From Streptomyces albogriseolus (lineage in GTDB: Bacteria; Actinomycetota; Actinomycetes; Streptomycetales; Streptomycetaceae): a DNA stretch of 64,000 bases. The translations under genes were made by a program, and so were the position numbers. A model generated the notes under the pieces. It saw only the letters and a program-made list of their open reading frames with translations. It was not told where the DNA came from and ran no database searches. The stretch is from the NCBI GenBank assembly GCA_014650475.1, contig BMVA01000020.1:1-64000 (forward strand), in the 5' to 3' direction. Every line of letters begins with the position of its first letter. The first letter of the stretch is position 1. Positions 57,380 through 64,000 of the stretch are shown here, piece after piece.

Positions 57380-58624
57380 ATGGAAAGCTTCTCGCTGATC
57401 CTCGCGATTGTGGTGGTAACCGCACTCGCGTTCGATTTCACGAACGGTTTCCACGACACCGCGAACGCGATGGCAACGACCATTTCGACCGGTGCGCTGA
57501 GGCCCAAGGTCGCGGTGGCCATGTCCGCCGTGCTGAACCTTGTCGGCGCTTTTCTCTCGGTGGAGGTCGCCAACACGATCTCCAAGGGCCTCGTCGACGA
57601 GGCCGGTATCCGTCCCGAGGTCATCTTCGCCGCGTTGGTCGGCGCGATCCTCTGGAACCTCCTGACCTGGCTGGTCGGCCTGCCGTCCAGCTCCTCGCAC
57701 GCCCTCATGGGCGGTCTGATCGGCGCCACGGTCGCCTCCGCCGGCTTCGGCGCGGTCCACGGCGACGTCCTGGTCACCAAGGTCCTGATCCCCGCGATCG
57801 CCGCCCCGCTGGTGGCCGGCCTCGCCGCGATGTTCGCGACCCGGCTCACCTACCGCATGGGCAGGAACGCCGACGCCAAGGCCTCGGAGAAGGGCTACCG
57901 CGCCGGGCAGATCGCCTCGGCCGGCCTGGTCTCCCTGGCGCACGGCACCAACGACGCCCAGAAGACGATGGGCATCATCACCCTCGCCCTGGTGGCCGGC
58001 GGCACCCTCGCTCCCGACTCGGACCCGCCCATGTGGGTCATCCTCTCGGCGGGCATCGCCATCGCGCTCGGCACCTACCTCGGCGGCTGGCGCATCATCC
58101 GCACCATGGGCAAGGGCCTGACCGACCTCCAGCCGCAGCAGGGCTTCGCCGCCCAGACCAGCGCCGCGACGGTCATCCTGGCCTCCTCCCACCTCGGCTT
58201 CTCCCTCTCCACCACGCATTCCGTCTCCGGTTCCGTGATGGGCGCGGGCCTGGGCCGCAAGGGCGGTGTCGTCCGCTGGTCGACCGCCACCCGGATGTTC
58301 GTCGCCTGGGGTCTGACCCTGCCGGCCGCCGCCCTGGTCGCGGCGATCGCCGAGTGGGTGTGCGGCTTCGGAAGCTGGGGCACCGCCGTCGTGGCCGTCT
58401 TCCTGATCGCGTCCAGCGCGGCCATCTGGAAGATCTCCCGGCGCGAGGTCGTCGACCACACCAACGTCAACGACCACGAGGCCCCCGGCGCGGAGCCGGC
58501 CGGCGTGGTGACGCAGGCGATGGCCGCGGTGACCCCGCCCCCGGCGGGCACCGTGAGCGACGAACTCGCGGCCACGATCCCGGCCCCCAACGACCCGGCC
58601 TCACCGGCCAGGACCTCCGTCTGA
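57380..58624 (+). CDS. pitH2: Inorganic phosphate transporter, PiT family
   Basis: A 414-residue membrane protein of the PiT family that imports inorganic phosphate as metal-phosphate with protons. Family signatures: FTNGFHDTANAMATTISTGAL near the N-terminus, and the paired LAHGTNDAQKTMGIITLAL motif. About ten helices. Upstream is a PhoP-like box. Its S. coelicolor counterpart is, to my memory, pitH2, reported to be under PhoP control. A small membrane-protein gene follows 34 bp later. No strong Shine-Dalgarno precedes the ATG at 57380. Confidence 0.9.
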   Translation: MESFSLILAIVVVTALAFDFTNGFHDTANAMATTISTGALRPKVAVAMSAVLNLVGAFLSVEVANTISKGLVDEAGIRPEVIFAALVGAILWNLLTWLVGLPSSSSHALMGGLIGATVASAGFGAVHGDVLVTKVLIPAIAAPLVAGLAAMFATRLTYRMGRNADAKASEKGYRAGQIASAGLVSLAHGTNDAQKTMGIITLALVAGGTLAPDSDPPMWVILSAGIAIALGTYLGGWRIIRTMGKGLTDLQPQQGFAAQTSAATVILASSHLGFSLSTTHSVSGSVMGAGLGRKGGVVRWSTATRMFVAWGLTLPAAALVAAIAEWVCGFGSWGTAVVAVFLIASSAAIWKISRREVVDHTNVNDHEAPGAEPAGVVTQAMAAVTPPPAGTVSDELAATIPAPNDPASPARTSV

Positions 58625-58658: not shown

Positions 58659-58880
58659 ATGAAGATCGACTGGGCGGCCCTCGGTTCCGTCTTCGGCGTC
58701 AGCCTCGTGGTCACCGTCGCCCTGGTGGCCCTGTTCACCCTCGGCATCACCGGCCTGTCCCGCCGCGAGCGTGCCGCGGCCCAGGGCCAGTCCGCGGCCC
58801 TGGCGGTCACCGGCGCCTACGCCTGCTTCGCGGCGTGCGCGGCGGCGGTGGGCTACGGGATCTACCTGATCATGGCCTGA
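58659..58880 (+). CDS. Small membrane protein linked to the phosphate transporter
   Basis: A 73-residue protein with two transmembrane helices: GVSLVVTVALVALFTLGITGL, and a second near AVTGAYACFAACAAAVGYGIYLIM. GGAAGAAGAG precedes the ATG. It is 34 bp downstream of the PiT gene and should be co-transcribed. Small partners of this sort are common next to pit in Streptomyces, but no function is established. Confidence 0.72.
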   Translation: MKIDWAALGSVFGVSLVVTVALVALFTLGITGLSRRERAAAQGQSAALAVTGAYACFAACAAAVGYGIYLIMA

Positions 58881-59034
58881 CCGCAGATCGTCCCCGTCCG
58901 GCGGGCGGTGCGGGAGCCCCGGCTCCCGCACCGCCCGCCGACGTGTGCGCGCCGTCCACCGGCCGTTCACGGCGTTCACCCACGTGAGCCCCTCTGTGGG
59001 CCTCGGCACACTTCAGCCCCGCAGGTCAACGGCA

Positions 59035-59218
59035 AGTTGACGGCCCTTCCAGGGGCATGGTGGACTGCCTCCGCCAATACGGCGGCAGGAGAGGAAGCCG
59101 GTGCGAATCCGGCGCGGTCCCGCCACTGTCACCGGGGTGTCCACCCCGGAAGCCAGGAACTCTCGCCGCCGGTCTCGTCGAACCAGGGCGCGGACACCCT
59201 GAGTGAGGACATATCGCC
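59035..59218 (+). promoter_or_regulatory. Cobalamin (B12) riboswitch
   Basis: The B12 box lies at 59095-59129 (GCCGGTGCGAATCCGG, then GCCACTGT). P5 stem CCGGGG (59132-59137) with CCCCGG (59144-59149) has loop TGTCCA. P13 stem CAGGG (59184-59188) with CCCTG (59197-59201) has loop CGCGGACA. TGTCC of the first loop and GGACA of the second are complementary, forming the L5-L13 kissing contact. The ribosome-binding site GTGAGGA (about 59204-59209) directly follows P13, so ligand binding should block translation of the 26-codon ORF starting at 59219. Confidence 0.92.
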
Positions 59219-59299
59219 ATGCGCGGCAGCCTGCCGAGGTCGACCAGCGACACCCCACCCCCCTTCGGGGCCGTAACCTCCGGATCCGTCACCGGCTGA
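59219..59299 (+). CDS. 26-codon ORF between the riboswitch and cobD
   Basis: An ORF of 26 codons (M R G S L P R S T S D T, then Pro-rich, ending G S V T G) begins 9 nt after GTGAGGA at 59204-59209, the only good ribosome-binding site near the riboswitch. Its TGA (59297-59299) lies 4 nt before the cobD ATG at 59304, which itself has no Shine-Dalgarno site. So cobD is probably translated by reinitiation. It could also be an uncharacterised leader that sets coupling. No homology is recognised. Confidence 0.5.
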   Translation: MRGSLPRSTSDTPPPFGAVTSGSVTG

Positions 59300-59303
59300 A
59301 CCC

Positions 59304-60245
59304 ATGGGTGCCGATCGCGTGTTCGCGTACGGCGCCGCCGCCGGCCTCCTCGGCGACCTGCTGCTCGGCGATCCCCGCCGTGGGCATCCGGTCGCCGCGT
59401 TCGGGCGGGCCGCGGCTGCCGTGGAGCGGGTGCTGTGGCGGGACGACCGGGGCCGCGGGGCCGTGCACACCGCCGTGTGCGTCGGCGGCGCCGTCGCCCT
59501 CGGGAGCCTGGCCGCCCGCGCCGTACGCCGCTCCCCCGCCGCTTCCGTCGCCCTGACCGGCGTCGCCACCTGGGCCGTCGTCGGCGGGACCTCGCTGGCC
59601 CGGGAGGCGCGTGCCATCGCCCAGGCGCTGGAGGCCGGTGACGTCGAGGCCGCCCGGGAGCGGCTGCCGCACCTGTGCGGACGTGACCCGCAGGCCCTGG
59701 ACGCCGACGGCATCGCCCGCGCCGTCGTGGAGTCCGTCGCCGAGAACACCTCCGACGCCGTGGTGGGCGCCCTGGTGTGGGGCGCGGTCGCCGGGGTGCC
59801 GGGTCTGGTGGGCTTCCGGGCCGTCAACACCCTGGACGCGATGGTGGGGCACAAGTCGCCCCGTCACCGCCGCTACGGCTGGGCGTCCGCCCGTCTCGAC
59901 GACGTCGCCGGCTGGCCGGGCGCGCGTCTGACGGCCGTCCTGGCCGCGCTCACCGGGCCGAACCCGCGCGGTGCGGTACGGGCCTGGCGCGCGGACGCGG
60001 GCAAGCACCCCAGCCCCAACGCCGGTCCCGTGGAGGCGTCCTTCGCGGGCGCGCTCGGCGTGCGGCTCGGCGGGACCCTCTCCTACGGCGGGCGGGTCGA
60101 GCACCGGCCCGTCCTCAACGGCGGCGGACGCCCCGTCGCCGTCACCGACATCGACCGGGCGGTGCGCCTGTCGCGGCGCGTCGGCTGGCTGGCGCTGGCG
60201 GCCGGTGTGGCCGCGCGGCGCGTGCTGAAGGGACGTGCCACATGA
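59304..60245 (+). CDS. cobD: Adenosylcobinamide-phosphate synthase (CobD/CbiB)
   Basis: A 313-residue integral membrane enzyme that attaches aminopropanol (or its phosphate) to adenosylcobyric acid. Visible family segments are [62 protein letters not shown] and [19 protein letters not shown]. About five helices. The start at 59304 is preceded by a short ORF, not a ribosome site. The stop overlaps the cobQ ATG (ATGA). Controlled by the B12 riboswitch. Confidence 0.93.
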
Positions 60246-61749
60246 GCGGTGGCGGACTGCTGGTCGCCGGGACCACCTCGGACGCCGGCAAGAGCGTGGT
60301 CACCGCCGGGATCTGCCGGTGGCTGGTGCGCCAGGGGGTGAAGGCCGCGCCGTTCAAGGCGCAGAACATGTCGCTGAACTCGTTCGTCACCCGCGAGGGC
60401 GCCGAGATCGGCCGCGCCCAGGCCATGCAGGCCCAGGCGTGCCGGGTGGAGCCGACTGCGCTGATGAACCCGGTGCTGCTGAAGCCGGGCGGCGAACGAT
60501 CCAGCCAGGTGGTGCTGATGGGCCGCCCGGTCGGCGAGATGAGCGCCCGCGGCTATCACGGGGGCCGTCAGGAACGGCTCCTCGGCACCGTCCTGGACTG
60601 CCTGGAGCAGCTGCGGAACCAGTACGACGCGGTGATCTGCGAGGGCGCCGGGAGCCCGGCGGAGATCAACCTGCGCCGCACCGACATCGTGAACATGGGC
60701 GTCGCCCGCAACGCCGGTCTGCCGGTGCTCGTCGTCGGCGACATCGACCGGGGCGGCGTCTTCGCCTCCTTCTTCGGCACGGTCGCCCTGCTCTCCCCCG
60801 AGGACCAGGAGCTGGTCGCCGGGTTCCTGGTGAACAAGTTTCGCGGGGACGTCTCGCTGCTGGAACCGGGCCTGGAGATGCTGCACGGACTGACCGGGCG
60901 GCGCACCTACGGCGTGCTGCCCTTCCAGCACGGGCTGGGCATCGACGAGGAGGACGGTCTCAGGGTGTCGCTGCGGGGCGCCGTGCGGGAGTCCGCGGTG
61001 GCCGCGCCGGCCGGCGAGGAGCTGCTGCGGGTCGCGGTGTGCGCGGTGCCGCTGATGTCCAACTTCACCGACGTGGACGCGCTGGCCGCCGAGCCGGGTG
61101 TCGTGGTGCGGTTCGTGGACCGGCCGGACGAACTCGCCGACGCCGACCTGGTGGTCGTGCCGGGCACCCGCGGGACCGTACGCGCGCTGCGCTGGCTGCG
61201 CGAACGCGGACTGGCGGACGCGCTGGTGCGGCGGGCCGCCGAGGGCCGGCCGCTGCTGGGCGTCTGCGGCGGCTTCCAGCTCCTCGGCGAGCACATCGAG
61301 GACGACGTGGAGAGCCGCGCGGGCCGCGTGGACGGGCTCGGCGTGCTGCCCGTACGGGTGCGGTTCGCGCGTGAGAAGACCCTGGCCCGCCCGGCCGGCG
61401 AGGCCCTGGGTGAGCGCGTCGAGGGGTACGAGATCCATCACGGGGTCGCCGAAGTGCTCGGCGGGGAAGCCTTCCTGGACGGCTGCCGGGTCGGCTCCAC
61501 CTGGGGCACGCACTGGCACGGCGCGCTGGAGTCGGACGGGTTCCGGCGGGCGTTCCTGCGCGCGGTCGCCGAACGCGCGGGACGCCGTTTCGTGCCGGCC
61601 CCCGACACCTCCTTCGCCGCGCTGCGCGAGGAGCAGCTCGACCGGCTCGGCGACCTGATCGAACAGCACGCGGACACGGACGCGCTGTGGCGGCTCATCG
61701 AGTCCGGCGCGCCACCAGGACTGCCCTTCATTCCACCGGGAGCGCCCGC

Positions 61750-61753
<4 letters not shown>
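60242..61753 (+). CDS. cobQ: Cobyric acid synthase
   Basis: A 503-residue ATP- and glutamine-dependent amidotransferase adding four amides to adenosylcobyrinate a,c-diamide. The N-terminal P-loop [13 protein letters not shown] binds [15 protein letters not shown] and [26 protein letters not shown] follow. The glutaminase half has [13 protein letters not shown] with the catalytic Cys, and the His in [13 protein letters not shown]. Length is normal for CobQ. It overlaps cobD (ATGA) and its stop overlaps cobN (ATGA). Confidence 0.95.

Positions 61754-64000
<2,247 letters not shown>

Follow-up and report, generated by a model that had tools for sequence, protein, structure and literature searches.

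The cobalamin riboswitch upstream of cobD in Streptomyces albogriseolus raises the question of which start codon it controls. The window, i.e., the whole 64,000-nt stretch of contig BMVA01000020.1 that was analysed, carries a short upstream open reading frame (uORF) between the riboswitch and cobD. The first-pass annotation had claimed that the switch acts on this short frame, and that translation of cobD, cobQ and cobN depends on reinitiation. A precedent is reported from M. tuberculosis, in which the B12 switch of ppe2 acts on uPPE2, and PPE2 needs the translation of uPPE2, mainly through termination-reinitiation at an AUGA overlap (Kipkorir 2024, PMC11260477). The evidence described there comes from reporters and blots, and the ppe2 operon includes cobQ and cobU (PMC11260477). 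The mechanism is named a translational relay in the available part of a review (PMC12713380).

The features of the leader and the operon are listed in Table 1. The layout given in the first-pass annotation agrees with the sequence: the Shine-Dalgarno sequence (SD; GTGAGGA) ends at 59209, the uORF begins 9 nt on with the ATG at 59219 and ends with the TGA at 59297-59299, and the cobD ATG lies at 59304. The riboswitch is likewise real, being a complete aptamer that scores above the gathering cut-off of its Rfam family, whereas the start assigned to it (59132) is wrong, as RF00174 begins approximately 90 nt earlier. The L5-L13 kissing contact had been placed at TGTCC (59138-59142). This was a misassignment, since the site is the loop of the P6 extension, in which TGTCC is found anywhere in 3 of the 131 loci with a parsable aptamer (L024 did not match the aptamer pattern). 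It was rejected as L5 in favour of GGTCCC, which lies within GCGGTCCCGC in all 131. The GGTCCC loop is what we take to be L5, based on the Rfam structure line and on the known architecture of this riboswitch class. Its GTCC (59117-59120) is complementary to the GGAC of L13, and complementarity is the evidence for the kissing contact, as covariation cannot prove the pairing of two sides that are both nearly invariant.

Table 1. Features of the cobD leader and operon in the window.
Feature	Position	Strand	Basis
Cobalamin riboswitch aptamer, predicted (RF00174)	59044..59184	+	cmscan covariance-model score 45.7 bits, gathering cut-off 31.5
L5 loop GGTCCC, likely kissing partner of L13	59116..59121	+	within GCGGTCCCGC in 131/131 loci
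TGTCC, loop of P6 extension	59138..59142	+	in 3/131 loci
B12 box region AGCCAGGAACTCTC	59151..59164	+	sequence and Rfam alignment
P13 hairpin CAGGG-CGCGGACA-CCCTG, L13 motif GGAC at 59192-59195	59184..59201	+	consensus helix
Shine-Dalgarno GAGTGAGGA, 3' foot of P13	59201..59209	+	exact motif by which 183 uORF loci and 31 direct loci were called; duplex -7.7 kcal/mol
uORF, 26 codons, ATG to TGA	59219..59299	+	start, stop and frame conserved
Spacer, stop-to-start, 4 nt	59300..59303	+	4 nt in 116/183 loci, 3 in 29/183, 5 in 26/183
cobD (CobD/CbiB, PF03186), ATG start	59304..60245	+	Pfam 304.5 bits
cobQ	60242..61753	+	Pfam GATase_3 and CbiA; start overlaps cobD stop as ATGA
cobN, continues past window end	61750..64000	+	Pfam CobN-Mg_chel 683 bits; ATGA overlap with cobQ stop

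Both internal junctions of the operon are ATGA stop-start overlaps (60242-60245 for cobD-cobQ, and 61750-61753 for cobQ-cobN). The predicted SD of cobQ is strong (duplex energy -12.4 kcal/mol) and that of cobN is moderate (-6.6 kcal/mol). The proposed dependence of cobQ on reinitiation is unsupported, as cobQ has this strong SD of its own besides the ATGA overlap, so that a relay need not govern how strongly the operon as a whole is expressed. As both downstream genes carry their own SDs, the relay considered here would apply to cobD alone. No intrinsic terminator-like site, as a transcription attenuator would require, was found within 58880-59420, and a search for the sigma-70 consensus found no internal promoter. 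Upstream of the leader are a gene for a PHO4-family phosphate transporter (57380-58624) and an ORF of 73 aa that matches no Pfam family (58659-58880).

The leader was compared across relatives, and loci were classed by the SD and then by the start codon that follows it, either as uORF loci or as direct loci, in which a similar SD lies straight on cobD. The sets with the exact SD comprise 183 uORF loci (173 distinct uORF sequences) and 31 direct loci; nine further loci, in which the SD differs from GAGTGAGGA or sits elsewhere, were labelled by motif and translation. Within the genus, 101 genomes were drawn evenly (98 with cobD and 3 without), and 6 fragments or contig-end matches were left out; the genus and the family are taken to be Streptomyces and Streptomycetaceae from the named loci among the nearest relatives by cobD. 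The 92 genomes examined consist of 71 uORF, 20 direct and one without a riboswitch. The family draw, likewise even (61 genomes, 3 without a cobD match), yielded 42 uORF, 10 direct and 6 without a riboswitch among 58 genomes with cobD. The class draw gave a cobD match in 76 of 148 cases, and 58 loci were retained after leaving out 11 in the window's family and 7 that were weak or fragmentary; an Rfam riboswitch is present in 6 of these 58 out-of-family loci, with the uORF form in L206, L207 and L228, the direct form in L155 and L156, and an unclear form in L151, where only a CTG is found at the junction. The window's own genome is in every draw, and another six are common to the genus and family draws. 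A separate set of 80 loci was taken by closeness of cobD and is not a random sample (best 80 of at least 463 confirmed, with at least 594 stretches matched); it contains 79 uORF and 1 direct, or 80 and 1 of 81 when the window is added. Every riboswitch-bearing locus is thus uORF or direct with none left over, the junction of L151 being unclear. A sequence pattern served to call the aptamer both in these 80 loci and in those of the genus draw; in an Rfam check of 20 of 85 genus loci, 19 matched and L316 did not. In L316, cobD is in two pieces and the riboswitch is absent upstream. Six genomes from two genera of the window's family (L185-L190) have a cobD without a recognised riboswitch in approximately 700 nt upstream.

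The strength of ribosome entry differs between the two starts of the leader. Duplex energies were calculated with the sequence of the 16S end. The median is -7.7 kcal/mol for the uORF, -4.9 for cobD in uORF loci, -4.3 for shuffles and -7.7 for cobD in direct loci (medians over 119, 120 and 12 loci, the 12 being the direct loci known by then). The leader SD serves the uORF, and cobD in the same loci has an SD strength near shuffle level. In the window, the SD before cobD is weak (-3.8 vs. -7.7 kcal/mol for the uORF). P13 is the sole consensus helix of the expression platform among 170 distinct sequences, with a UA-to-CG exchange in 2 and UG in 2, and a consensus helix over the SD was sought in this set and not found. 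The stem reads CGGGG/CCCCG in 3 of 223 loci and CGAGG/CCTCG in 2, while L192 and L207 did not match the P13 stem pattern (2/223). In a sample of every fourth locus, the SD core GAGGA is approximately half paired in the free ensemble (mean paired probability 0.53 in 47 uORF loci and 0.49 in 7 direct loci). In a separate folding run, forcing P13 left the SD similarly paired (mean 0.68 vs. 0.58 unforced). Plain folding did not reveal how B12 would close the SD.

The first-pass annotation had asked for a conservation check, and start, stop, frame and stop-to-start spacing are all preserved within the genus and in further genera as well. In the loci with the exact SD, the uORF starts with ATG and stops with TGA in 183 of 183, begins 7-11 nt after the SD, and is 14-47 codons long (median 20). 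For 181 of the 183 loci (182 with a scorable start), the stop falls between -4 and +7 nt relative to where cobD starts. The same interval catches 0/182 and 5/182 stops in frames +1 and +2, controls from which L173, without an in-frame ATG/GTG/TTG start, was omitted. With identical uORFs removed, the stop is at the cobD start in 171 of 173 distinct sequences. A smaller earlier set, scored from -4 to +6, gave 118/119 in the uORF frame, and 0 and 3 in the other frames. Besides the 4-, 3- and 5-nt spacings in Table 1, the stop overlaps the cobD start by 4 nt in 5 loci, and 7 have other arrangements. The two misfits are a gap of 13 nt and a locus without an ATG/GTG/TTG start. The length of the uORF was altered at least 66 times on the tree, and its frame ends at cobD nonetheless; by comparison, branch-disjoint length differences in the P6 extension, which is non-coding and served as a control, are divisible by three in 8 of 49 cases. 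The location of the uORF stop at the cobD start is not due to chance. At the junction of L173 (16-codon uORF) and L151 (35-codon uORF), the stop lies over a CTG as CTGA, and no ATG/GTG/TTG is found nearby in the cobD frame. The arrangement hints at a CTG start that would be fed by reinitiation.

With the SD at the foot of P13 and the uORF stop abutting the cobD start, the switch likely controls the access of ribosomes to the uORF. Comparison of these leaders makes it probable that ribosomes finishing the uORF reinitiate on cobD and so translate it, in support of the switch-on-short-ORF reading of the first-pass annotation: the geometry of the frame is kept, its peptide appears unselected, and relatives of the direct form have the SD on cobD. 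Two steps come from the comparison, namely that the order of SD, ATG, open frame, stop and cobD is kept with a peptide that changes as if unselected, and that riboswitch-bearing relatives without the uORF carry the SD directly on cobD. From what is known of the riboswitch class, bound cobalamin would dock the GGAC of L13 onto the GGTCCC of L5, and P13 would be held against the SD, lowering initiation at the uORF as an OFF switch. Without cobalamin, ribosomes would pass through the uORF, terminate in most species 3-5 nt short of cobD, and restart; in a few species, the uORF stop overlaps the cobD start.

Gating could alternatively operate through Rho, with ribosomes on the uORF protecting a C-rich stretch when B12 is absent, and bare RNA being terminated before cobD when B12 is present. 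Rho-linked termination is reported to accompany translational riboswitches of M. tuberculosis (PMC12810186, PMC11260477), the uORF is C-rich and its product rich in Pro, Arg and Ala, and no intrinsic terminator-like site occurs in the leader region. Shielding from Rho nevertheless leaves unexplained both the weak SD of cobD and the placing of the stop (181 of 183 loci) within a few nucleotides of the cobD start. As a replacement for reinitiation it is improbable, although it can coexist with the relay and could add to it.

Highly unlikely is a second alternative, in which the uORF is a bystander and cobD initiates independently, either without an SD or from an internal promoter. Leaderless transcripts make up 17% of those in S. 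lividans and are described as common in Streptomyces (PMC8079986), and an internal promoter is conceivable given that the search covered the sigma-70 consensus. Under independent initiation, however, neither the stop-start geometry nor the frame would be expected to be conserved, and an SD shortly before cobD in the riboswitch loci without a uORF would not be predicted. Where a direct locus has the exact SD (31 loci), this distance is 5-13 nt; it is partly set by definition, as the class window is 4-15 nt, yet no locus is left over. That riboswitch-bearing relatives without the uORF have the SD on cobD is as the relay predicts. No other in-frame start is found near the canonical cobD start in 25 of the 31, and in one direct clade the canonical start is 12-13 nt after the SD. 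On a FastTree phylogeny of 223 CobD proteins (189 uORF, 34 direct), the architecture changed between uORF and direct at least 12 times, a parsimony count on a single-protein tree that gives no direction and treats L151 as uORF. In direct loci L276, L277, L279, L284, L287 and L294, the N-terminus of CobD is a short MPGR segment similar to those of uORF products; a former uORF start may have become that of cobD, through fusion of the two frames.

The uORF could also encode a leader peptide that acts by its sequence, e.g., by stalling on a signal. Such an explanation is suggested by the recurrence of certain first residues (MRGC, MPGR, MPGC, MLAC) and last residues (TAG, TAV). The GC content by codon position (0.63, 0.79 and 0.82; the third above a shuffle mean of 0.75) is only mildly gene-like, a point against the relay reading, and because it is weak as a coding test, the frame controls and substitution tests were used instead. 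Among 287 differences in 40 branch-disjoint pairs, 99 were synonymous, against 92.5 expected from placing those base changes at random in the frame (z 0.85), so that the purifying selection characteristic of a regulatory leader peptide was not detected in a test of limited power against weak constraint. In 30 cobD codons of the same pairs, synonymous changes numbered 184 vs. 81.1 expected (z 14). Changes in the uORF are alike at the three codon positions (99, 91 and 97), and they are random-like at its two ends (z 0.25 for the first four codons, 0.08 for the last four) and in between (z 0.57), which speaks against recurrent terminal residues that matter as peptide. Nonsense changes, with just 2.9 expected among the 287 differences, were too few to test. 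A prior run on 136 overlapping pairs (217 synonymous and 547 nonsynonymous changes vs. 232 and 532 expected) is superseded by the 40 disjoint pairs. The length range of 14 to 47 codons and the absence of the uORF from 34 of 223 loci likewise count against a peptide acting by sequence, which is even a little less likely than independent initiation. With the frame kept and synonymous changes as frequent as expected, the peptide looks free; it probably does nothing, and being translated is likely the function of the uORF. The last bases before the uORF stop (ACGGCCGGCTGA consensus; 59288-59299 in the window) are moderately conserved as DNA, as are the first few. These 3' bases are possibly part of the cobD initiation region.

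The cobD frame takes all three positions relative to the uORF (119, 32 and 31 of 182 loci), which fits reinitiation and not fusion; a frameshift or stop readthrough leading to an N-terminally extended CobD, for which the minor fusion product reported for ppe2 (PMC11260477) would be the parallel, is scarcely credible, since no single frame change would serve all three.

Like the ppe2 leader, the cobD leader combines a compact B12 aptamer with an SD and a uORF that follow it at once, a main gene whose own SD is not obvious, and a stop-start junction, and the uORF stop is conserved at the main start (181/183 within -4 to +7 nt). Unlike ppe2, in which the AUGA overlap precedes a PPE gene, the cobD leaders are mostly spaced by 3-5 nt (171/183). 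The window itself has a 4-nt spacer, and the ppe2-like 4-base overlap is confined to 5 of 183 loci (L175, L177, L178, L181 and L312). Further differences are that the cobD leaders have cobD as the first gene, that selection on their uORF peptide was not detected, and that relatives alternate between the uORF and direct forms. Mbox-pe20, a translational riboswitch of M. tuberculosis, is also reported to act first on a uORF; it differs in its Mg2+ ligand, its highly conserved peptide and the Rho-dependent termination shown for it (PMC12810186). Directly coupled translational cobalamin riboswitches, represented here by 34 of 223 loci, have the same aptamer family and SD position, and differ in that there is no uORF and the SD serves cobD itself (at 5-13 nt in the exact-SD loci). 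The nrdABS switch, the subject of a 2006 paper by Borovok, is likewise a B12 riboswitch in Streptomyces and reportedly differs by controlling transcription, as its title has it.

In S. lividans, a cobalamin riboswitch is listed before cobD-cobQ-cobN, and 21 of the 22 listed elements are transcribed; the available part of that study names no uORF for the cobD leader (PMC8079986). Cobalamin riboswitches are merely listed in the available part of PMC8388888, the word cobalamin is absent from the main texts of PMC8780764, PMC8269248 and PMC11109978, and the term uORF is absent from PMC8914203. No paper describing a uORF relay under a B12 riboswitch of Streptomyces was found by title or abstract among the matches listed, a coverage with most subscription journals outside it.

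Comparison supports a relay at cobD. It would be a variant of that at ppe2, found widely in Streptomyces and interchangeable with direct forms. That more than one family has such a leader at cobD suggests that relays of this type need no PPE insertion event, and that the arrangement demonstrated for ppe2 is a common solution in Streptomyces and occurs in a few other actinomycete families. The relay may well be swappable in actinomycetes under the cobD B12 switch, with an irrelevant peptide and a uORF that was added or removed at least 12 times and selected only for translation and stop position, so that a gene without its own ribosome-binding site could be gated. Related species with and without the uORF below the same switch offer a natural experiment, and the uORF provides an example of a bacterial frame apparently under selection for translation alone. 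In high-GC genomes, mistaking such uORFs for untranslated leader may lead to a wrong assignment of the first target of a riboswitch.

The window's own genome has five other B12 riboswitches, none of which, judged by eye and from a loose ORF list, is followed by a strong SD, a uORF and an SD-less gene. Small frames occur behind two of them: a 6-codon GTG frame that ends 3 nt before the ATG of its gene (L002), and a 16-codon GTG frame with an ATGA overlap with the next ORF (L005). Both frames may be due to chance, as the genes have their own SD-like GGAGAGGG or GGGAGAGG.
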